NCBI GenBank assembly: GCA_937951485.1
Contig: CALEDJ010000023.1
Span: 1 to 64,000 of the forward strand
Origin: an uncultured bacterium
Lineage (GTDB): Bacteria; Hydrogenedentota; Hydrogenedentia; Hydrogenedentales; CAILVY01
Length of the DNA: 64,000 nt
Direction of reading: 5' to 3'
The notes under the pieces were generated by a model. The model did no database searches, had not been told where the DNA came from, and saw nothing but the letters and a program-made list of their open reading frames with translations. Positions 11,721-58,988 of this stretch are shown here, piece after piece. Numbering within the stretch: position 1 is the first letter of the stretch; each line of letters opens with the position of its first letter. A program made the translations under genes and the position numbers.

Positions 11721-11775
11721 AGTCTCGATGAGGTCAGAAAATATGGGGGCGGCCCGGCAATGGGGAGGAATTGAG

Positions 11776-12630
11776 ATGGAAGCGGCGGAACTGGTTGAAC
11801 AGGCGCTGGGACTGTCAGCAATGGAAGGCACGACCGAAGCATCGCGGCGGCGCATCGCCGGGGTGTTCTGTGATGCGGGTGAAATCGTCCCGTTCTCGGA
11901 CAACGAGCCGCTGATCAAGATGGGCGGGATCGGTGGCGATGCGGGCTATGTGCTGCTGCGGGGGCGGGCCGTGATCGAGCGCGAAGGAGAAGCGCCGATC
12001 ATGGTGTCCGCGCCGGCGCTGCTCGGCGAGATGTCTCAATGGAACCCGCGCGCGGTGCGGGTGGCGTCGGTTACATGTCGCGGCGCGGGGGAGGCGCTGC
12101 GTTTCTCCTGGCGCGAAGCGCACGCCCGTGCGCAGGACCTGCTGGACCCGGCGGACCAGGCGCGGCTGATGGAGGCGGTCGAACGCATCGCCCTGCAGCG
12201 CTTTCAGCGCGAAGACCTCCTGGACCTGCCGCTGCTGCGCGGGCTTCCAGACGAATTGCGCCTGCGCATCTGCATCCTGCTACAGTGGGTGGCGCATCCC
12301 CTGGAATTGGCCGCAGGCGCGCCGCTGTTCGAGGCCGATGCGCTCTGCGACGATACGGGCTATCTGATTCTCCAGGGGGAAATCGCCGTCTCCCGTTCCG
12401 GCGAAGCGCCGCACGTCGTTGCTGCGCCCGACCTGATCGGCATTCATCCCCAATTCGACCCTGAACTGCGCTGGCGGGCCTCGGCCCACGCGCTCACCCC
12501 CGTCGAAGCCCTGCGCTTTGCCTGGCGCGTCTTCCTGAGCCTGCTCGACAAGCGCATGATCGCCGGGGAGCGGAAACGTTTTCAGGCCATCATCCACGCC
12601 GCCGCCGATGATGAACAACTGGCAAAATGA
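11776..12630 (+). CDS. Protein with two tandem cyclic-nucleotide-binding-like domains
   Basis: A 284-residue protein. The start at 11776 has a strong GGGGAGG seven bases upstream; upstream in-frame ATGs at 11728 and 11743 lack one. Two similar halves are visible: GYVLLRGRAVIEREGEAP followed by ALRFSW in the first, and GYLILQGEIAVSRSGEAP followed by ALRFAW in the second. Each reads like the beta-roll of a CNB (CAP_ED) domain. There is no helix-turn-helix, kinase or channel segment, so it is not a CRP-type regulator by itself. The phosphate-binding cassette (usually RxA after GE) is not clear in either half, so ligand binding is uncertain. A signalling or scaffold role is inferred. Confidence 0.6.
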   Translation: MEAAELVEQALGLSAMEGTTEASRRRIAGVFCDAGEIVPFSDNEPLIKMGGIGGDAGYVLLRGRAVIEREGEAPIMVSAPALLGEMSQWNPRAVRVASVTCRGAGEALRFSWREAHARAQDLLDPADQARLMEAVERIALQRFQREDLLDLPLLRGLPDELRLRICILLQWVAHPLELAAGAPLFEADALCDDTGYLILQGEIAVSRSGEAPHVVAAPDLIGIHPQFDPELRWRASAHALTPVEALRFAWRVFLSLLDKRMIAGERKRFQAIIHAAADDEQLAK

Positions 12631-12700: not shown

Positions 12701-12808
12701 GCGACCAACAGGACGAAAAGGATCAACAGGACAAAAAGGATCAACAGGGCTGTCAGGGACGATAGGACTGATAAGACTGATATGACTGACAGGACCGATA
12801 GGACCGAT
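12701..12808 (+). repeat. Twelve-unit tract of a 9-nt repeat (AGGACCGAT-like)
   Basis: Read in fixed 9-base register the units are GCGACCAAC, AGGACGAAA, AGGATCAAC, AGGACAAAA, AGGATCAAC, AGGGCTGTC, AGGGACGAT, AGGACTGAT, AAGACTGAT, ATGACTGAC, AGGACCGAT and AGGACCGAT. The register never slips over 108 bases. Related tracts occur elsewhere in the window. Confidence 0.85.
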
Positions 12809-13020
12809 CGTCAGGACGGGGCTTTGTCGGCGCCATAAGTCTCGCAGGTGTTCACGCTGTGGAATTTTCCCGCAGCATAAGCACAATTCTCAAGTCACCA
12901 GAGGTTCTTGCAAAAGATGCTGTTCTCCAGCGCAGCGCGGGCATCCAGCCCATGTTTCACAGGGGGGCCGATCCTGCCACGGGATCTGCTGCAGGATTCA
13001 AATCTTATGTTACTTTTTTC

Positions 13021-13065
13021 ATATAAGTCATTCAAGTCATATAAGTTCTAGGTCCTACAGGTCCT
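13021..13065 (-). repeat. Reverse-oriented 9-nt repeat tract
   Basis: Units are ATATAAGTC, ATTCAAGTC, ATATAAGTT, CTAGGTCCT and ACAGGTCCT. On the minus strand the last two read AGGACCTGT and AGGACCTAG, i.e. the same AGGAC-type unit as 12701-12808 in opposite orientation. Confidence 0.7.
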
Positions 13066-13212
13066 ATAAAACAACTGCAACGACAATTCCTGCTCTTTTC
13101 TCGCCCCCCGTTTGTAGTTTCCCCCCGCGTGTCTGCATACTCTTTGCCATGCACCGGCGACCAACGATGCCGTGAGCATGATTCCATTTTTTAACAGGGC
13201 AGGACGCAATAC

Positions 13213-15063
13213 ATGTCGGACAGACAAATTCGGGTGATCTTTGAACCGCAGGGGCGCGCGGTGCAGGTGGAGAAGGGGATTCGGTTATTCGAGGCGGCTG
13301 CGCGGGCCGGGCTGACCGTGGACATGCCGTGCGGCGGGCTGGGCAACTGCGGCAAATGCCGTGCGCGGTTGGCGGGCGTTGTACCGGAACCGTCGGACGC
13401 CGAACGGCGCGTGTTCAGCGCTGAGGAATTGCAGGACGGCTGGCGGCTGTCATGTCAGACCAGCCTGCACGAAAAGGCCACGGTATATCTTCCCGAAACC
13501 TCGCTTTTCGGCGGGCGCGTGCAGATTCAGGTGGATGCGGATGTGGCCGGGGCGGGCGAACTCGCGCCGCTGGTGCGTAAAATGTATGTTGAACTGCCGC
13601 CGCCCACCCTCCAGGATGAAGCGGCCGACATGGTGCGGCTGGAACGCGTCATCGGCCCCTTTGATGCGGGGTTGGACGTGTTACGCACGGCGCCGCGCCG
13701 CATGCGCGAGGCGGGTTTTCGCGGGACGATCGTGATGGCGGACCATCGGCTCGTTGACTTTGAACCGGGCGACACCACCGACGCCTGTTACGGCGCGGCA
13801 TTCGACATCGGCACGACGACGCTGGTGGGCGCGCTGCTGCATCTCGGCAGCGGCGAGGAGCGCGCCATAAGTTCCAGCATCAATCCGCAGGTGGTGTACG
13901 GCGATGACGTGCTGTCCCGCATCACAATGACGATGCAGAAAGAAGGGGGCCTCGATTCCCTGCAATCGGTCGTGCGGACGACCGTCAACGACATGTTGAC
14001 CGAACTGTGCCGCGCCGCGGGCGTCTCTCTGGATGTCGTGTACGAGATCACCTTTTCCGGCAACACGACGATGGAGCACCTGCTGTGCGGCATCAGTCCC
14101 GCGCAATTGGGGCAGGCCCCCTTTGCGCCGGTCTTCGGGCGCGCCATCACCTGGCCTGCGCGCACGCTGGGCATCAACATCCACCCGCGGGGACTGGCCT
14201 ACGTGTTTCCAGTCATCGGCGGCTTCGTCGGCGGCGACACCGTGGCGGGGATGCTGTCGACAGGCATTGCCGACGACCCCGCGCCGTCCATCATGGTGGA
14301 TATAGGCACCAATGGCGAGATCGTCATTGCGCGTGAGGGCAAGGTGTGGGCCGCGTCCACCGCGGCGGGGCCTGCCTTTGAAGGAGCGCGTATCTCCTGC
14401 GGCATGCGCGCCACGCGCGGCGCCATTGAAAAGGTGACCATCACGGACGATGTGCATTGCGGTGTCATTGACGGCGGGCCGCCTCTTGGGCTGTGCGGCA
14501 GCGGGCTGATTGACCTCGTGGCGGAGTTGTTGCGGCACGGCGTCGTGGCGCCGGACGGCCGACTGCTGCCGCCTGACCGTTTGCCTCAGGATCTGCCGGA
14601 GGCGTTGCGGCGGCGTGTGACACTGAATGAGGAGGGCGAGGCGCGGTTTGTTCTGGCCGCCGATGAACGCCGGAGGAAACCCGCAGAAGTGGCGTTGACC
14701 CAGCGCGATGTGCGCGAGTTGCAACTGGCCGGCGGCGCCATCCGCGCCGGTATTGCCATTTTGCTGAAATACGCCGGGATTACCATGGATGAGGTCATGC
14801 AGGTGCTCATCGCGGGCGGTTTCGGCAGTTTTATCCGCCGCAGCAACGCCCAGCGTATCGGCCTCTTGCCGCCGGAACTGCCCCACCAGCGCATCCGCTA
14901 TGTCGGCAACGCGTCGCTGAGCGGCGCGCGCTGGGCCCTGCTGTCCACCGCGGCGCGCCGCCGGGCCGAAGAACTTGCCAGACAGACCCGGCATGTGGAA
15001 TTGTCCACCGACCCGGATTTCGCCTTGGAATTCGCCACCGCCATGCGGTTTCCGGAAACATAG
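13213..15063 (+). CDS. RACo-type ASKHA protein, reductive activator of corrinoid proteins ([2Fe-2S])
   Basis: A cytoplasmic 616-residue protein. The N-terminal plant-type ferredoxin domain has the [2Fe-2S] ligands C40, C46 and C49 (CGGLGNCGKC) plus C81 (SCQTSL). The remainder is an ASKHA ATPase-fold domain with the phosphate-loop-like segment FDIGTTTLVGAL and a second VDIGTNGEIVIA. This is the architecture of RACo/RamA-like proteins that reduce the inactive Co(II) corrinoid of methyltransferase systems to Co(I) with ATP. The ATG is preceded by AGGA at about ten bases. The neighbouring minus-strand thioredoxin-like ferredoxin could share its electron chemistry. A possible methyltransferase client is the UroD-like gene at 49034-50272; that link is inference. 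Confidence 0.82.
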   Translation: MSDRQIRVIFEPQGRAVQVEKGIRLFEAAARAGLTVDMPCGGLGNCGKCRARLAGVVPEPSDAERRVFSAEELQDGWRLSCQTSLHEKATVYLPETSLFGGRVQIQVDADVAGAGELAPLVRKMYVELPPPTLQDEAADMVRLERVIGPFDAGLDVLRTAPRRMREAGFRGTIVMADHRLVDFEPGDTTDACYGAAFDIGTTTLVGALLHLGSGEERAISSSINPQVVYGDDVLSRITMTMQKEGGLDSLQSVVRTTVNDMLTELCRAAGVSLDVVYEITFSGNTTMEHLLCGISPAQLGQAPFAPVFGRAITWPARTLGINIHPRGLAYVFPVIGGFVGGDTVAGMLSTGIADDPAPSIMVDIGTNGEIVIAREGKVWAASTAAGPAFEGARISCGMRATRGAIEKVTITDDVHCGVIDGGPPLGLCGSGLIDLVAELLRHGVVAPDGRLLPPDRLPQDLPEALRRRVTLNEEGEARFVLAADERRRKPAEVALTQRDVRELQLAGGAIRAGIAILLKYAGITMDEVMQVLIAGGFGSFIRRSNAQRIGLLPPELPHQRIRYVGNASLSGARWALLSTAARRRAEELARQTRHVELSTDPDFALEFATAMRFPET

Positions 15064-15118
15064 CCCATTGCCGCGCAAGCCGCCGCAAACGCCCCCTCGC
15101 GTCGTCTCCGCCGCTTCC

Positions 15119-15190
15119 GTCATCCTTGTTGTTTCTCGCTATCCTGATGACGCCGTTGCTGTCGTTGTTGTCCTTGCTGTCCTCCTTTAC
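15119..15190 (-). repeat. Reverse-oriented 9-nt repeat tract
   Basis: Eight units in register: GTCATCCTT, GTTGTTTCT, CGCTATCCT, GATGACGCC, GTTGCTGTC, GTTGTTGTC, CTTGCTGTC and CTCCTTTAC. It sits between the convergent stops of the RACo-type gene and the small ferredoxin gene. Confidence 0.7.
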
Positions 15191-15211
15191 CCGATTTCCA
15201 GGCGCAATCCC

Positions 15212-15505
15212 TTACAGCCCGGCGGCGATATCTTCCAGTATCTTCTCCAGGTCTGCCGCCGCCACGCCGCTGTACCAGCGATTGTCCGGAAAGACCATGA
15301 CATTCGGTCCCGAAGCACAACGGTCCAGGCAACCGGACCTGCACACGCGCACCCTCCCGTGCAGCCCCCGATCGCGCACCATCTCCTTCAATTGTGCGTG
15401 CAAGGCCACGCCGTCCCGCCGCGCGCAGCAGGGACGGTCTTCCGTCTCGCGAAGGTTCGTGCAGACAAATACCATTTTCCTGAATGGCGTTTCTTTCGTT
15501 TCCAT
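15212..15505 (-). CDS. Thioredoxin-like [2Fe-2S] ferredoxin
   Basis: A 97-residue cytoplasmic protein. Cysteines at C15, C26/C27, C59 and C63 (the latter in SGCLDRCASGPNV) match the C-x10-12-C ... C-x3-C pattern of the thioredoxin-fold [2Fe-2S] ferredoxin family (2Fe-2S_thioredx). Family members carry electrons for hydrogenases, NuoE-type subunits or cobalamin metabolism. On the minus strand AGGGGG lies seven bases before the ATG. It is convergent with the RACo-type gene, so not co-transcribed with it, but the pairing of two [2Fe-2S] proteins suggests a related redox role. Confidence 0.82.
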   Translation of the reverse strand: METKETPFRKMVFVCTNLRETEDRPCCARRDGVALHAQLKEMVRDRGLHGRVRVCRSGCLDRCASGPNVMVFPDNRWYSGVAAADLEKILEDIAAGL

Positions 15506-15561
15506 ACATACCCCCTGTCGTGTTGGGAATCATGTCAGGTTCTTGGTGGCTTGAACAGGAA

Positions 15562-15606
15562 GGAACGTAAGCGACATAAAGGACATAAAAAACACAAGGG
15601 ACAAAC
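15562..15606 (+). repeat. Forward 9-nt repeat tract
   Basis: Units GGAACGTAA, GCGACATAA, AGGACATAA, AAAACACAA and GGGACAAAC in register. Confidence 0.65.
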
Positions 15607-15683
15607 AACAATATCAACTTCCAGATTTGTTTCCCGGTTTCCGGTTGCCCACAGTCTATTGCGTTGTTTCTACAATCCCGGTG

Positions 15684-15755
15684 GTCTCTCTTGTTCACAT
15701 TGTCCCTTTTGTCTTTTGCTGTCCCTTTTGTCTCTTACCTCCTTTTCGTCCTTTG
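15684..15755 (-). repeat. Reverse-oriented 9-nt repeat tract
   Basis: Units GTCTCTCTT, GTTCACATT, GTCCCTTTT, GTCTTTTGC, TGTCCCTTT, TGTCTCTTA, CCTCCTTTT and CGTCCTTTG, with one single-base phase change. On the minus strand these read AAAGGGAC-like. Confidence 0.65.
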
Positions 15756-15790
15756 GTCAAGCCGCACCACATTGTACCGCATGATGGAAA

Positions 15791-15819
15791 TTGCGGAAAA
15801 GTGACCGTCTGAGTATACT
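15791..15819 (+). promoter_or_regulatory. Promoter candidate for the second aldehyde dehydrogenase
   Basis: TTGCGG (15791-15796), a 17-base spacer, and TATACT (15814-15819), 43 bases before the start codon. Spacing is ideal and both boxes are close to consensus. Confidence 0.55.
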
Positions 15820-15862
15820 GGCCTTTCTTCACCCAACAAGCAGCCTATGGGAGTACTCGATC

Positions 15863-17260
15863 ATGAGCGCTGGAGAACTGAAGGTGATCAACCCCTACAC
15901 GGGCGATCCGTGCATTGTGTTGTCCATGCTGAACGCGGATGACGTGGACAGTGTGGTTGCGCAGGCGCGCGAGGCGTTCGCGCAATGGCGCTGGACATCC
16001 ATCGCTGAACGCAAGGCGTTGTGTGAGCGCTTCATGACGGCTTTTGCGGCCATGGGCAACGAAGTGGCCCGGCAGATCACGATGCAGATGGGCAAGCCGC
16101 TGCGACAGGCGCAGAACGAAGTCAACGGCATGCTGGACCGCGCGCGCTACATGATTGACATTGCGGAGGAAACCCTGCGCGACGAGTATCTTCCGGAAAA
16201 GCCCTGTTTCACACGCTATATCCGGCATGAGCCGAAGGGCGTGGTGCTGGATATCGCGGCGTGGAATTACCCACTGCTGATCGCTGTCAATGTGATTGTG
16301 CCGGCGGTGCTCGCGGGGAATGCGGTTATCATCAAGCACTCCAGCAAGACGCCGCTGTGCGGACGCGCTTTCACCGAGGCGTTCGCCAAGGCCGGCGCGC
16401 CCAAAGGGCTGGTGCAGGACATCATCGCCGACCACGCCGTCACGGAATGCTTCATCCGTCATCCCGGCGTCAACCATGTGTCGTTCACGGGTTCCGTGCG
16501 CGGCGGGCGCGAAGTCTCCGTCGCGGCGGCGGGCCGCTTCATAGATGTTGGCTTGGAGTTGGGCGGCAAGGACCCCGCCTATGTCTGCGCGGATGCGCCG
16601 TTCGATTTTTCGGTGGAAAACTGTGTGGACGGCGCATTCTACAATGCGGGCCAGTCCTGTTGCGCCATCGAGCGCATTTATGTCGAAGAACCGATCTACG
16701 ATCGTTTCGTGGAGGCGGCCGCCGCATTGATTCGCCAATATGTGATGGGGGACCCGATGGCGGACGACGTCACCCTGGGACCGATGGCATCAAAGGGCGC
16801 ACCGGAGTTCCTCGCCGGTCAGGTTCAGGACGCCGTGGCGCGCGGCGGACGGCTGGTGGTGGACCCACGAGAGTTCGCACTGCCGAAACAGGGCTGGTTC
16901 GCCGCGCCGGCGCTGGTGGCGGATTGTCCGCAGGATTGCGCGCTGGTGCAGGAGGAAAGTTTCGGGCCGGTCATCGCCATCCTCCCCGTGTCCGGCGACG
17001 AAGAAGCCGTCCGCCTGATGAACGACAGCGCCTATGGGCTCACGGCGTCCATCTGGACCATGGATGTCGCGCGCGCCATCCGAATCGGCGAGCGGATAGA
17101 AACCGGCACCTTCTACATGAACAGGTGCGACTACCTGGACCCCGCCCTGCCGTGGACCGGCGTCAAGGACACCGGCAAAGGCGCCACCCTCTCGCGCTAC
17201 GGATTGCTCAACCTCACCCAACTCAAGAGCATGCACCTGCGCACGGCGCTGCCGGACTGA
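15863..17260 (+). CDS. Aldehyde dehydrogenase (succinate-semialdehyde/betaine-aldehyde type)
   Basis: A cytoplasmic NAD(P)-dependent dehydrogenase of 465 residues. The catalytic base Glu lies in LELGGKDP (E232) and the nucleophile Cys in GQSCC (C266, with a second Cys at 267). The AWNYPLLIAVN substrate/cofactor segment is present, and YGLTASIWTMD and TGVKDTGKG occur near the C-terminus. The ATG at 15863 has GGGAG upstream and follows a good promoter; an in-frame start at 15791 would fall on the -35 box, so it is rejected. The closest general class is the short succinate-semialdehyde-like ALDH; the substrate cannot be fixed from sequence. It appears monocistronic and is convergent with the DUF1330 gene. 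Confidence 0.8.
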   Translation: MSAGELKVINPYTGDPCIVLSMLNADDVDSVVAQAREAFAQWRWTSIAERKALCERFMTAFAAMGNEVARQITMQMGKPLRQAQNEVNGMLDRARYMIDIAEETLRDEYLPEKPCFTRYIRHEPKGVVLDIAAWNYPLLIAVNVIVPAVLAGNAVIIKHSSKTPLCGRAFTEAFAKAGAPKGLVQDIIADHAVTECFIRHPGVNHVSFTGSVRGGREVSVAAAGRFIDVGLELGGKDPAYVCADAPFDFSVENCVDGAFYNAGQSCCAIERIYVEEPIYDRFVEAAAALIRQYVMGDPMADDVTLGPMASKGAPEFLAGQVQDAVARGGRLVVDPREFALPKQGWFAAPALVADCPQDCALVQEESFGPVIAILPVSGDEEAVRLMNDSAYGLTASIWTMDVARAIRIGERIETGTFYMNRCDYLDPALPWTGVKDTGKGATLSRYGLLNLTQLKSMHLRTALPD

Positions 17261-24528: not shown

Positions 24529-24620
24529 CGCCGGCCGCACCGAGCGATACGGACCGACACCGACCAAAACGGACCAATAGTGGCGCCCTGTGGCGCACGC
24601 GGCCAGGAGATGCGGCGACC

Positions 24621-26003
24621 ATGGAATGGAACGCCGAAGACACGATTGCGGCCATCGCCACGCCACCCGGCGAGGGCGGCGTGGGTATCGTGCGCATGAG
24701 CGGACCCCGATCCCGCGCCATCGCGGCGGAAATATTCATCTCATCGCGCGGGCGCGACATCCGCTCCGCGCGCCAGCGGGTCTATCACGGGCACATTGTG
24801 GATGCGGCGGGGCAGACGATTGATGAAGTCCTGTTGCATGTAATGCGCGCGCCGCACAGTTATACCCGCGAGGATGTCGTGGAGATCAACGCACACGGCG
24901 GTCCTGCCCCACTCAATGCCATACTGCAGGAGGCGCTGCGTCATGGCGCGCGCCTCGCCAGGCCCGGCGAATTCACGCTTCGTGCCTTCCTGAACGGACG
25001 CATAGACCTGGTCCAGGCCGAAGCCGTGATTGACCAGATTCGCGCGCGCACCCGTGCCGGTCTTCAGGCCGCCAACGCCGCCGCATCGGGTGCGCTCTCA
25101 AAGGCAATTTACGCAGTACGCGATGTTTTGCGCGAGGCCCTTGCCCACATCGAGGCGGCGGTGGATTTCCCGGAGGAAGACTTGCCGGACCTGGTCAATA
25201 AATCCCTCTTCGCGCGACTGCGCGGCGCGCATCGCCAAATCCGGGAATTGATGGACACCGCCGACGCCGGACGGATGGTGCGCGAAGGCGCGGTGGCCGT
25301 CATCGCGGGCCGCCCCAACGTCGGCAAATCCAGCCTCTTCAATGCGCTGCTCCGCGACGCCCGCGCCATCGTCTCCGCGCAGCCAGGCACCACGCGCGAC
25401 CGCCTTGAAGAATATATCACCATCGCGGGCGTGCCAGTCAGGCTGATAGATACCGCCGGCATCCGGGAATCAGGCGACGAAGTCGAGCGCATCGGCGTGG
25501 AAATCGCCCGGCAGGCGCTGGACAGCGCCAACCTGGCGCTGCTGGTGCTCGATGCGACCCAGCCGCCTGCCCCGGAGGAAGCGCAAATCGCCGGGGAACT
25601 GCGTGACCGTGAGATTCCCGTTTTACTGGTCATCAACAAGACGGATTGCGCAGCGGTCGCCCCGGAAAATCCCTGGCCCGAGACGCCTCTTGCTGCGGTC
25701 TGCGCCGTTTCCGCCACACACGGCACGGGCATCAGAGAACTGGAGGCGGCTATCGCGGAGATACTGCTCGGCGGCGCGGGCATTGACGCCGCCCAGCCCA
25801 TGATCACCCGCCAGCACCAGAAGGACAGCCTCCGCCGCGCCGAAGAAAGCCTCCAGCGGCTGTTTGATGCCGACGGCGTATCCCCCGAATTTATGGCCCT
25901 CGAACTGCGCGACGCCCTCGCGGCCCTCGGGGAAATCACCGGCGAAACCACCCCGGAAGATATCCTCGACGCCATCTTCGCCAATTTCTGTATCGGGAAA
26001 TGA
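24621..26003 (+). CDS. mnmE: tRNA uridine-5-carboxymethylaminomethyl modification GTPase
   Basis: A 460-residue GTPase that, with MnmG, modifies U34 of certain tRNAs. The N-terminal formyl-THF-binding domain starts DTIAAIATPPGEGGVGIVRM. The G domain has GRPNVGKS (230-237) and DTAG (277-280), and the NKTD specificity motif is present. The C-terminal CIGK box holds the invariant Cys (C457). The full family length is present. The partner mnmG is not in this window. AGGAG lies about 12 bases before the ATG. Confidence 0.96.
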   Translation: MEWNAEDTIAAIATPPGEGGVGIVRMSGPRSRAIAAEIFISSRGRDIRSARQRVYHGHIVDAAGQTIDEVLLHVMRAPHSYTREDVVEINAHGGPAPLNAILQEALRHGARLARPGEFTLRAFLNGRIDLVQAEAVIDQIRARTRAGLQAANAAASGALSKAIYAVRDVLREALAHIEAAVDFPEEDLPDLVNKSLFARLRGAHRQIRELMDTADAGRMVREGAVAVIAGRPNVGKSSLFNALLRDARAIVSAQPGTTRDRLEEYITIAGVPVRLIDTAGIRESGDEVERIGVEIARQALDSANLALLVLDATQPPAPEEAQIAGELRDREIPVLLVINKTDCAAVAPENPWPETPLAAVCAVSATHGTGIRELEAAIAEILLGGAGIDAAQPMITRQHQKDSLRRAEESLQRLFDADGVSPEFMALELRDALAALGEITGETTPEDILDAIFANFCIGK

Positions 26004-26365
26004 GCAGAAGCGCAGCCGTGCCGCTGGCACAAAGGACAGCAAGGACGAGAACAAATGTTCCGGAGTACAGGCTCCAGCCTGCCGTCGTCTTTGTCGCCGC
26101 TACGTAGTCACAGCGAATCGTCTTCGCCGCCACGTGACGAGGATTCAGAGTTGACGGGTAAATTCAAATTGTGGCATTGCCGGGGGAATACGCTTCCTTT
26201 CTTCAGCGAATCGCCGCCGAAGGCGGTGCGGGACTCGCAATGACGGCCTCATGCGCAGTGATTGCTTCAGTCGGCTGAAATGTTACATTTCTTCAAGTGT
26301 GTGTCATGGAGAAACGCCAACGATTCGTGGGAAGAGGGGACTGAAATACAAGGAGGTCAACCCCG
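26004..26365. other. Intergenic region with several dispersed repeats
   Basis: No gene seen in 362 bases. Contents: two 9-nt units (AAGGACAGC, AAGGACGAG, 26032-26049), one copy of the GTTCCGGAGTACAGGCT repeat (26057-26081) and one solo end of the MITE-like family (26232-26286). Confidence 0.6.
26232..26286 (+). repeat. Solo right end of the GTAACATTT MITE-like family
   Basis: It ends in GGCTGAAATGTTAC and shares the preceding GCGCAGTGATT-CTTCAGT segment with the element at 52176-52337. No left end was found within 250 bases. Confidence 0.6.
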
Positions 26366-37505: not shown

Positions 37506-39311
37506 CTACTGAATTGCCAACTCGTCCTGTACCAGGGCGGGGTCTTCCGGATTGGGCAGATGGAAATAGATCATTTCCCCGTCGGGGTCGGCGAATTCCG
37601 TAAGCGTCAGGGTGTATTCCGGCTTGCCATGCGGATACCAACTGGTGGTTTTCCACGCATCCACGGTGCAGGTCATGTATCCGCCGCTTTCGGGTGTTGC
37701 CGGGAAAGGACCGGCCAACGTTTCCGGCTTGATCGTCACCAAGCGCAGGTCTGCCGCCGCGAGGGCGGGGTTGTGTGCGCGATTCAGCGTAAAGACCTGT
37801 GGTCCATAGACCACAGCGGCGCGGCCCGCCTGGACACCACGGCCTTTGACCAACCGCAACCGCATCGGCAACACGACAGTCAATTCATCGTCCGCCCGCC
37901 ATTCCCGGCGGACTTCATGAAAAATGCCTGAGGTGATGGCGTCGGGAAGCGGTTCCCCATTAATTGTGATTCGCGCATTGTCGCACCACTTTGGAATGCG
38001 CAGGCGCAACGCAAAAGTCGCAGGCTTGTCCGGGGTTACACGAATCAGGATGTTTTCCCCTCGCGGATAGTCGGTTTCCTGCGCGATGCGCAGATTTGTT
38101 CCATCGCGGAGGGTGACCGCGGCCTCTGATGCGGTGTAGAGATTCACGACAAGCCCGTCGTCCGCAGCATAATAGACCATGCCCGGCAGTCTGGACATGA
38201 TGCGCCGGAAATTGCATGGGCAGCAGTAGGTGTCGTCTTTGAAATACTCGCGCTTGCCTTCGAACGGCGTGTAATAGCGGATGCGGCGTCCATCGGGGGA
38301 ATGCGCGGCGAAGAGCGCGTTGTGCACTGTGCGTTCCATCACATCGCCATAGAGCGGGTTGCCCTGGACACGCAGCAACTGGTCCCACAGGAACAACAGA
38401 TAGGCCGTGGCGCAGGTTTCGCCGAGATTCGCCGCGCCGTCCTGGGTATCGTGCCAGCACTCGTGCTGCCCGCACGCGCCGATGACCGTCAGGCCATCCC
38501 CTTTCAGCAGAAAATCCAGCGCCTGCCGGGTGTTCCCGAACAGTTTCGCGTCGCCCGTCATCCGCTGCAAATGCAATTGCGCGAGACACCGTGAGATATA
38601 CGCATAGGCATGGCCTTCTATATCGCCCCAGCGCCCGCGCACGATGCGGCCTTCCCAATCCGCCAAGCCCCGGAAATGGACGCAGAAATCGCGGTATTTG
38701 TCATCGCGTGTGGCGTCGTAGAGCATCAGCAGGGCGGGTTCCAGTCCCGTTACCCCCATGTAGGTGGTGATGTCCCAGTGTCCGATGACGTCTGGTTCGG
38801 CGGTCCATCGGTCAATGATCAGATCGGCGGTTTTACGCGCGGCATCGAGGGAGGCCTGATGCCCGAATAGCCGATGATTCGCGATCAGCCCCTGCATGAT
38901 GTAGGACATTTCATGGATGTCCCATAACGACCGGAATCGGTGTTCCGGTTTCATCATTCCGATGTACCCGTCCGCCTCCTGGACATTCAGCAACCCCTGC
39001 ACCACCCGGTCTTTCAGCGCGATCACATCCGCGTCGCCGGTGCAGGCCGCGAAATGAACGATGGCGTCCAGGGTCATCCCGACGCCGATGAAACCGCCGT
39101 CGGCAGTCTTGCGCTGAAACGGACGCAGGAAATCTTTATCAATGTCCACCACCAGCAGATTGCCCGTGATTGTCGTGTCAATGTGGCGGCCGATAATGCC
39201 GCCGACCTTCACCTGTCGCAGGTCAAGCGGACGAAACATTTCCGTCGTGCCCGGAGCGCAAAGACTCCACAGAATCATCCCGCCAATCATCATCAATGTT
39301 CCATGTATCAT
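37506..39311 (-). CDS. GH127-like beta-L-arabinofuranosidase
   Basis: 601 residues with an N-terminal hydrophobic helix, probably a signal peptide. The alpha/alpha barrel hallmarks of GH127 are present: the Glu/Cys pair in LGETCATAYLL and the double Cys in YCCPCN. Together these form the zinc site known in HypBA1-type enzymes, where a Cys acts as the nucleophile. Further family signatures are GHAYAYISRCLAQL and RTVHNALFAAHSPDG. AGGAGA seven bases before the minus-strand ATG supports the start. It probably removes terminal arabinofuranose or a related sugar. Confidence 0.82.
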   Translation of the reverse strand: MIHGTLMMIGGMILWSLCAPGTTEMFRPLDLRQVKVGGIIGRHIDTTITGNLLVVDIDKDFLRPFQRKTADGGFIGVGMTLDAIVHFAACTGDADVIALKDRVVQGLLNVQEADGYIGMMKPEHRFRSLWDIHEMSYIMQGLIANHRLFGHQASLDAARKTADLIIDRWTAEPDVIGHWDITTYMGVTGLEPALLMLYDATRDDKYRDFCVHFRGLADWEGRIVRGRWGDIEGHAYAYISRCLAQLHLQRMTGDAKLFGNTRQALDFLLKGDGLTVIGACGQHECWHDTQDGAANLGETCATAYLLFLWDQLLRVQGNPLYGDVMERTVHNALFAAHSPDGRRIRYYTPFEGKREYFKDDTYCCPCNFRRIMSRLPGMVYYAADDGLVVNLYTASEAAVTLRDGTNLRIAQETDYPRGENILIRVTPDKPATFALRLRIPKWCDNARITINGEPLPDAITSGIFHEVRREWRADDELTVVLPMRLRLVKGRGVQAGRAAVVYGPQVFTLNRAHNPALAAADLRLVTIKPETLAGPFPATPESGGYMTCTVDAWKTTSWYPHGKPEYTLTLTEFADPDGEMIYFHLPNPEDPALVQDELAIQ

Positions 39312-39440
39312 TGCCGATTCTCCTGCATGTTCTGATTTCTACGACGTATCCAGCGGTAATTATGCGCCCCGGCCGGGAAAACGGCAAGATTCCTGTTTGC
39401 ATCAAGTTGGTTTTGGATCAATTGCTGGAGACAACTGGAA

Positions 39441-39476
39441 TCCTTGTTGTCCCTTGTGTCCCTGCCGCCCTTGATT
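39441..39476 (-). repeat. Reverse-oriented 9-nt repeat tract
   Basis: Units TCCTTGTTG, TCCCTTGTG, TCCCTGCCG and CCCTTGATT in register. Confidence 0.5.
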
Positions 39477-39510
39477 TTTTCCCTCACTACCATTGAAAAT
39501 GCCCGCCCGT

Positions 39511-39516
39511 TATAAT
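39511..39516 (+). promoter_or_regulatory. Perfect -10 box TATAAT
   Basis: TATAAT 39 bases before the start of the truncated oxidoreductase gene. No good -35 lies at standard spacing (TTGAAA at 39493 is only 12 bases away), so confidence is low. Confidence 0.3.
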
Positions 39517-39555
39517 GCCGATAAGACTACTGTCACCAAGACAGGAGCGCAGATC

Positions 39556-40119
39556 ATGAGCGATGCAATCACGCGGAGACGTTTTGTCCAAACGGCGGTG
39601 ACCGCGCTTGGCGGCAGATATGCCGTGGGTGATGACCGCACCATCCCCGACACCATGCAGGCGTGCTTTGAATTCGCGTCCGGCGGACTGATGAACTTAA
39701 GTCAGTTCGAGTCCAGCAACAATCCCATCCTCGCAAAACCGGGAGAAGTGGAACTGCGCGGCACGAACGGCACCATCTACGCGCGGGGTTCCGGCTACGA
39801 GGTGGTCCCGGAACGCGGCGGCCAGTTCCAGGACAGGGCGCCGCGCATGGAACCCATTCAGGAGAAGGCCAAAGGCGGCAATGAAAATCTGATGACGTTA
39901 CACATGCGTAATTGCCTTGATTGCATCAAGAGCCGCGAGAAACCGCATTGCGACGTGGAGGAAGGCCATCGCTCCACCATCTTCGCCCACCTCGCGAATA
40001 TCGCCCTGGAAACGCGATCACGCATCGCATGGGATCCCGTGGCGGAACGCATCACCAGCAACGAAGCGGCAAACGATTTACTGCACCATGAGTACCGACC
40101 GCCGTGGGCATTGGCATGA
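39556..40119 (+). CDS. Truncated Tat-type Gfo/Idh/MocA protein lacking its Rossmann domain
   Basis: 187 residues. The Tat signal start (MSDAITRRRFVQTAVTALGG) passes directly into the C-terminal half of a Gfo/Idh/MocA dehydrogenase. The tail (MRNCLDCIKSREKPHCDVE, then HLANIALETRSRIAWDP) aligns by eye with the tail of the complete protein at 58989-60353 (VRNFIDCVKSRNEPVCPVE, HMVNIAAQTRRVIHWDP). About 200-250 residues, including the nucleotide-binding fold and EKP motif, are missing without a frameshift. Probably an internal-deletion remnant; an expressed fragment is possible because AGGAG and a TATAAT box precede it. Confidence 0.7.
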   Translation: MSDAITRRRFVQTAVTALGGRYAVGDDRTIPDTMQACFEFASGGLMNLSQFESSNNPILAKPGEVELRGTNGTIYARGSGYEVVPERGGQFQDRAPRMEPIQEKAKGGNENLMTLHMRNCLDCIKSREKPHCDVEEGHRSTIFAHLANIALETRSRIAWDPVAERITSNEAANDLLHHEYRPPWALA

Positions 40120-41743: not shown

Positions 41744-41900
41744 AGAAGATGAAGGACCATGTCCAAAAGCCCTTGGAAACTCCTGTTGAATCAAGATAAT
41801 GTAGCGGGCTTATCCTATATGCAAACCTCTGCGTGGGATTCCTGAGGCATCATTGACGCATGTACCAAGGTGTGCTGTTCTGTTCCCCCTCACCCCACCC

Positions 41901-42135
41901 CTCTCCCGGAGGGAGAGGGAGCGACAGCGTTCGTCAGGTGGCGCGGTAAACGCCCTCTCCCGGAGGGAGAGGGAGCGACAGCGTCCGTCAGGTGGCGCGG
42001 TAAACGCCCTCTCCCGGAGGGAGAGGGAGCGACAGCGTCCGTCAGGTTGCGCGGTAAACGCCCTCTCCCGGAGGGAGAGGGAGCGACAGCGTCCGTCAGG
42101 TTGCGCGGTAAACGCCCTCTCCCGCTGGGAGAGGG
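41901..42135. repeat. 54-bp tandem repeat built on a palindrome (4 full units + partial)
   Basis: The unit starts CTCTCCCGGAGGGAGAGGG and continues with GCGACAGCGTCCGTCAGGT and GCGCGGTAAACGCC. Units start at 41901, 41955, 42009, 42063 and a shorter variant at 42117. The array is flanked by CCCTCACCCCACC and GGGGTGAGGGGG, so the whole block is itself a long inverted structure. Each unit can fold as a hairpin. Confidence 0.85.
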
Positions 42136-42318
42136 ATGGGGTGAGGGGGAAGGCCAATACGATCGAAGGCTATTCACAACGCTAAGCATATTTTGGACAA
42201 CACTGAGATTTCTCCCTGATTTCCTGCCGTGGCGCGTCTCGATATGAACTATCCCCGTGTGGCGCTGTATAGTCTTTGCCAGCGTCAGAGGACAAGTGCG
42301 TATTCTGTGAGGTGAGCG

Positions 42319-58838: not shown

Positions 58839-58988
58839 CCAAGTTCTTCGTGCGCTGTGGTTCCGGGCTGAAGACCAGAAAGCCACCGCAGCGGTTTCCG
58901 AAAACTCCACCCGGCCGCCCATCCTCGTAACCTTCTGATATACTTCTCCCCCTTTATGTCGCAAGAAGGCCAAGAAGGCCGGTGACAT

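Follow-up and report, generated by a model that had tools for sequence, protein, structure and literature searches.

Intergenic nonamer arrays with an AGGAC core in a Candidatus Hydrogenedentota genome: fixed arm order, outward reading from gene borders and a mobile-element relative

Degenerate tandem units of seven bases at a fixed period are known from heterocystous cyanobacteria as the short tandemly repeated repetitive (STRR) heptamers, and heptanucleotide repeats of the Nostoc tRNA-Leu intron, a single RNA locus, lie on either side of a stem, where slippage makes them vary. Here we describe arrays of nonamers with an AGGAC core, found in a 64-kb stretch (the window) of a 4.55-Mb draft genome of Candidatus Hydrogenedentota (G000). 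The closest described system is that of the GGGAATC and GGGGA(C/T)T heptamers of Xanthomonas and Nostoc, whose units are degenerate around a constant core (Rehm et al., 2015; PMC4692102). About 180 heptamer arrays of 2-26 units are present per genome, approximately 90% of them intergenic; convergent pairs were counted in 70 and 75 cases, and arrays lie nearer to the open reading frame (ORF) on their 5' side (28 versus 160 nt), irrespective of ORF orientation (PMC4692102). These heptamers show no preference for a gene class, their length and sequence vary between relatives, and their function remains to be elucidated (PMC4692102).

The nonamers resemble the Xanthomonas and Nostoc heptamers in having a constant core, a fixed period, an intergenic bias, convergent pairs and a nearer gene on the 5' side. 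Since this main geometry is matched but the unit has nine bases instead of seven and the core is AGGAC instead of GGGA, we regard them as a variant and not a member of the heptamer family. Other differences are that the heptamers show a four-unit optimum and G-quadruplex formation, whereas the GGAC of the nonamer has only two consecutive G's; that divergent spacers are under-represented for the heptamers and not for the nonamers; and that no mobile elements are linked to the heptamers, whereas the nonamer repeat is carried by a miniature inverted-repeat transposable element (MITE) in a relative. The geometry reported in 2015 recurs in other phyla, where both the unit length and the core are different, and is therefore not peculiar to G-quadruplex repeats. 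The reading we favor, to which we give about even chances of being right, is that the nonamer arrays are non-coding, palindromic, hairpin-forming intergenic repeats with turnover by unit slippage and MITE spread in some lineages.

Tracts were scored with a 9-mer weight matrix built on the strong tracts of the window's genome, together with direct reading of the letters and Tandem Repeats Finder (TRF); outside the window, the genome was covered by sampling individual stretches of it. Third-order Markov sequences served as control for the matrix, reversed sequence being unsuited since reversed tracts still resemble the motif. Whole-genome counts used a pattern of three AGGAC cores at 9-nt spacing with the reversed pattern as control, and genes were called with a home-made Markov gene finder, whose calls are approximate. 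In the matrix, each position of AGGAC is conserved at roughly 90% or above, and four variable bases follow. The constant part of the unit is (A/C/T)AGGAC at period 9, AGGACCGAT being just one variant, and the degenerate nonamer of the arrays can be written RGGACNNNN. Tracts of at least 14 bits numbered 19 in 464 kb of real genome and 0 in its third-order Markov versions; in the window, the chance level at this threshold is about 0.8 matches per 64 kb if two units are enough. The exact three-core pattern was found at 35 places in the whole genome versus 1 for the reversed pattern, and with one mismatch there were 133 matches versus 9. This genome-wide enrichment bears out the AGGAC core and 9-nt period of the original prediction, which had been made from the letters of the window. 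Rfam gave no match anywhere in the window; literature searches with the repeat's sequence strings returned nothing relevant, and no paper on repeats in Hydrogenedentota was found.

Sixty-nine of the 75 strong tracts lie outside predicted genes, in a genome where the non-coding share of the DNA is 15%. Where both strands of a spacer carry tracts, the AGGAC arm (+) comes first and the GTCCT arm (-) second in 20/20 cases, with 0 reversed, and the paired arms are 10 to 234 nt apart. Furthermore, among 71 strong intergenic tracts the closer of the two neighboring genes lies on the 5' side of the tract in 63 cases, whatever the strand of that gene, so that these tracts read outward from it (p = 1e-11); the median distance to a gene is 58 nt on this side versus 175 nt. 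Outward reading is also seen in 24 of 30 single tracts, and holds at gene 3' ends (34 away, 5 toward) as well as at 5' ends (31 away, 3 toward). The non-random, inverted orientation first noticed in the window is in this way confirmed, and the AGGAC-then-GTCCT handedness, the outward-reading rule and the mobile-element link are additions to it. An expected enrichment at 3' ends and convergent junctions was not found: tracts adjoin 5' and 3' gene ends about equally (37 and 34), and the tract-bearing spacers (29 codirectional, 11 divergent, 10 convergent) match the composition of the full set of spacers (86/33/21).

Coding repeats or chance matches were considered as sources of the tracts. Runs of the AAGGACGGC type occur in other bacteria within long reading frames, and a strict-pattern scan of 85,000 species returned 110 stretches, many of them coding and inside open frames of several hundred codons. 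For this genome, both are ruled out, with next to no residual doubt, by the intergenic location of the tracts and the empty Markov controls. Since the tracts are intergenic, the unit length of nine has no coding meaning here, although its being a multiple of three had been remarked upon.

Two further observations concern orientation. Heptamer arrays of GGAATGC/GGAACGC units exist in the same genome (L147:9369-9441, L155:4265-4359 and L208:1679-1823); they lie on the minus strand just ahead of the right-hand gene and obey the outward rule of the nonamers. Rare divergent exceptions to the arm order occur at L164:975-1207, L165:1000-1086 and L192:956-1056, and belong to a TAGGAC subclass whose units contain ACCGGT and are themselves nearly palindromic.

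The tracts of the window and their surroundings are the following:

12701-12808, + strand: left arm of pair 1, 11-12 AGGACNNNN units, detected by TRF; 3' of gene 11728-12630 (+)
12710-12808, + strand: matrix match of the pair 1 left arm, 11 in-register units, 65.5 bits
12899-13018, no strand: pair 1 spacer, degenerate copy of a second dispersed palindromic repeat (AGGCYCTTGCAAAACCT ends)
13021-13065, - strand: weak right arm of pair 1, where three degenerate units accompany two clear ones (12.9 bits); ahead of gene 13213-15063 (+)
15119-15190, - strand: single tract, best part 15148-15183 (34.9 bits); between genes 13213-15063 (+) and 15212-15505 (-)
15562-15606, + strand: left arm of pair 2, 29.9 bits; upstream of small gene 15212-15505 (-)
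15671-15755, - strand: right arm of pair 2, 15671-15715 with 17.6 bits and 15717-15752 with 33.4 bits; upstream of an aldehyde dehydrogenase gene, 15791-17260 (+)
26033-26050, + strand: two-unit tract with only two good units, just past a gene ending at 26003
39436-39471, - strand: single short tract of 4 units, 29.4 bits; in spacer 39290-39556

Among the tracts originally proposed, those at 12701-12808, 15119-15190, 15562-15606, 15684-15755 and 39441 stand; 13021-13065 is weak (TRF reports period 9 at 13019-13046, overlapping this arm), 26032 amounts to two units, and the site at 58963 scored below 7 bits in the matrix scan, which is chance level. The gene at 13213-15063, between the two tract pairs, codes for a RACo-like corrinoid activation protein with 2Fe-2S, linker, middle and ASKHA domains.

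A stem-forming role had also been suggested for the inverted tracts. In the predicted fold of pair 2 (15545-15765) the arms pair with each other, and the stretch folds far better than its shuffles (z = -5.5), whereas pair 1 barely beats its shuffles (z = -1.55); a stem-forming potential is supported, more clearly for pair 2. Stems of this kind could act as bidirectional transcription terminators or insulators, the RNA of each strand presenting an A/G-rich arm, a loop and a C/U-rich arm (GUCCUU). A bidirectional intrinsic terminator needs an A-rich arm first and a T-rich arm last, which would explain the fixed arm order, and the fold of pair 2 agrees with such a role, as do the elements of acidobacterium G075, which are compact, nearly perfect palindromes with approximately 10-nt loops and T runs at their ends. 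However, divergent spacers are not avoided (11/50 versus 33/140) and 5' and 3' gene ends are used alike; neither single tracts nor loops as long as 234 nt are suited to terminators; the fold of pair 1 is weak; and no tracts were seen near the orthologous genes of relatives. The fixed order could come from a terminator-like role, an explanation weakened by the presence of tracts at divergent promoters, and we consider it rather unlikely that the pairs are terminators or insulators.

Hairpin formation, which is part of the reading we favor, cannot by itself explain the AGGAC...GTCCT order either, because the reverse order pairs equally well. The fixed order and the outward reading point to common descent from elements so ordered, or to a further constraint. 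The comparison within the phylum covered 68 genomes, all of a single taxonomic order. In genus g4 (G007-G009), 13 fetched loci share a 150-180 bp element that has a 16-bp terminal inverted repeat (TIR), with ends CCTAAAAACGGCNGTT and its inverse, and many copies are flanked by perfect 5-bp target site duplications (TSDs) such as TTCAA, TTTAT, ATAAC, ATTAT, TTGAT and ATAAT. Its stem consists of two AGGAC arms around a short 18-nt loop, and the lengths of its copies (154-155, 163-164, 172-173 and 181 bp) differ in steps of one 9-bp unit. Matches to the TIR numbered 48 in G007 (control 1); G008 and G009 had about 10 apiece, and G006 had a single one. Many copies are intergenic, near-identical copies occupy unrelated sites, and the element has no coding capacity. 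Judged by this structure, the g4 element is a MITE, and it matches bacterial MITEs in its TIRs, TSDs and size (154-181 bp), whereas the pairs of the window's genome show no TIR or duplication. A transposase or autonomous partner of the g4 MITE was not found. For copies at unrelated sites, a similar picture was obtained in acidobacterium G074. With the g4 MITE a clean system is available: whole units are gained and lost within one family, so that the link between slippage, palindrome and transposition can be measured directly.

A different kind of mobility would be that of repetitive extragenic palindromic (REP) elements moved by REP-associated tyrosine transposases (RAYTs) or other IS200-type (Y1) transposases. 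REPs and bacterial interspersed mosaic elements (BIMEs) of the GTAG and CGTC superfamilies are likewise intergenic palindromes arranged as convergent dimers with variable spacers (PMC3733652), and Y1 transposases are encoded in 54 of the 68 Hydrogenedentota. However, REPs are single palindromes of 20-40 bp and nearly constant sequence (PMC3733652), and here there are tandem nonamers, no Y1 transposase and no constant-sequence, GTAG/CGTC-tagged 20-40 bp palindrome. The window's genome (about 6% of it missing) has 0 Y1_Tnp (PF01797) matches despite its 133 tract matches, and the mobile family of g4 differs from Y1 elements in its TIRs and 5-bp duplications. REP-like movement is thus very improbable.

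Evidence on how the arrays grow was obtained from their units. Identity at the variable positions was 0.54 between adjacent units, 0.49 elsewhere in the same tract, 0.48 with the other arm and 0.40 with other loci, and the within-tract identity exceeded that of all 500 shuffles. In G034, arrays of 26-32 nearly identical units were found, with unit tails that differ between loci (identity 0.91 for neighboring units versus 0.44). When arms of the same locus were compared with swapped arms in the window's genome, pairing was slightly better per nucleotide for the former (p = 0.004; raw energy p = 0.16); the same test gave no signal in G074 and genus g4. Since units are more alike within a tract than between loci, slippage with some copying between arms fits these data, and growth by slippage, as first proposed for the window, is supported. 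Turnover appears also from the presence of tracts among relatives. Four-unit tracts occur in 26 of the 68 genomes, with large contrasts inside genera: matches per genome were 67/4/0/16 in genus g21, 0/25/20/16 in genus g4, and 27 and 0 in genus g29. One 32-unit array of G034 has no counterpart next to the orthologous gene in G035 and G036. For the window's genes at about 15-17 kb, relatives exist in G001, G002, G003 and G007; the vicinity of the matched stretches yielded no tract, and little synteny is left.

Based on these results, the arrays would begin as hairpin-forming insertions or short inverted repeats, lengthen and shorten by replication slippage, have their arms kept alike by template switching, with copying across the hairpin, and survive where no gene is harmed; most arrays of the window's genome would be old or immobile products of this same process, as no TIRs were found there. 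The data can be accounted for without a host function, though one may exist. Several results weigh against this proposal. Mobility is evident in a relative (genus g4) and not in the window's genome, where no TIR signal was detected outside the tract pairs (p = 0.18) and no target duplication either, where spacers are mostly unrelated between loci and near-identical copies at unrelated sites were not observed, and where no transposase could be linked to the repeats. Moreover, 30 of the 50 tract-bearing spacers hold one tract without a significant partner, and a weak second arm showed no significant excess in these single-tract spacers (p = 0.14). At locus L231 of G034 the two arms carry different units. 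Finally, the Xanthomonas heptamers, which have the same geometry, were reported without association to mobile elements (PMC4692102). As judged from this comparison, transposition is therefore probably not the general cause of the geometry.

The arms of L231 keep core and period despite their different unit tails, which would suit a quite different explanation, that the tracts are site arrays for a putative DNA- or RNA-binding protein reading RGGAC every 9 nt, with orientation and outward reading reflecting polarity. Other data in its favor are the constancy of the core in many phyla, against drift at the other four positions, and the outward reading of single tracts. On the other hand, no protein candidate emerged, tracts are gained and lost quickly within genera, unit number ranges from 2 to more than 30, and a 9-bp period mismatches the helical repeat of DNA, so a protein-binding array appears doubtful. 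A separate reading would be that the tracts give GGA-rich RNAs that bind CsrA. CsrA sites are GGA preceded by A, as found in every unit, and one CsrA is encoded by the window's genome. But no PF02599 match was obtained in G007-G009, G014, G018 and G019, genomes that have tracts, some of them in large numbers, and in the second arm the motif is present as its antisense. Since some carriers are without CsrA, this reading is disfavored and hardly to be believed.

Beyond the phylum, the strict-pattern scan revealed convergent intergenic pairs in Acidobacteria, Verrucomicrobiales, Chlamydiaceae and Parachlamydiaceae, with the + arm first in 7/7. The genomes behind these matches contain tens to hundreds of copies each, for example 351 places versus 36 in controls in G075 and 54 versus 2 in the Parachlamydiaceae genome G073, and in Acidobacteria the elements are compact palindromes with loops of 0-26 nt. 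Arm order is not absolute outside the window's genome, since adjacent pairs were 21 convergent and 3 divergent in genus g4 and 12 and 1 in G075. The gene finder is poorly trained on foreign genomes, and the distance-to-gene rule was not relied on there. We tentatively propose, as a possibility short of being the likelier outcome, that outward-reading tandem repeats with a GGA core at gene borders might constitute one general bacterial kind, with units of 7, 9 and perhaps more bases, arisen or spread across Hydrogenedentota, Acidobacteria, Chlamydiae, Verrucomicrobia, Xanthomonas and Nostoc. They would share one handedness rule, set relative to gene borders and not to transcription and predicted by no known function or mutational process, and some of them would be stems of transposable elements. 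With at least two independent cases now at hand, the handedness rule is testable across all genomes.

Other repeats were observed in the same DNA. The second dispersed palindromic repeat is about 100 bp long, with AGGCYCTTGCAAAACCT ends and a GGGCATCCTGCCCATGTTTCATGGGCGAGACGCCCATG-like interior, and occupies about 10 sites of the genome (window 12899-13018; L385-L398). Most of its copies are without tracts, and it is nested in two tract pairs; the copy at 12899-13018, which matches the L011 spacer at 69% over 120 bp (BLAST), apparently sits inside the pair 1 spacer in this way. A further intergenic inverted-repeat family (GTTGTGGCCGGTCTCCAGACCG...) is common to several tract-bearing spacers (L153:14767-15280, L026, L209 and L215). 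In the window, a short period-10 tract with CGGACC cores adjoins a gene end at 24534-24579, perhaps representing a related class of different period, and an intergenic 54-bp tandem repeat (CCCTCTCCCGGAGGGAGAGGGAGCGACAGCG...) of 4.4 copies, 97% alike, is located at 41899-42136.

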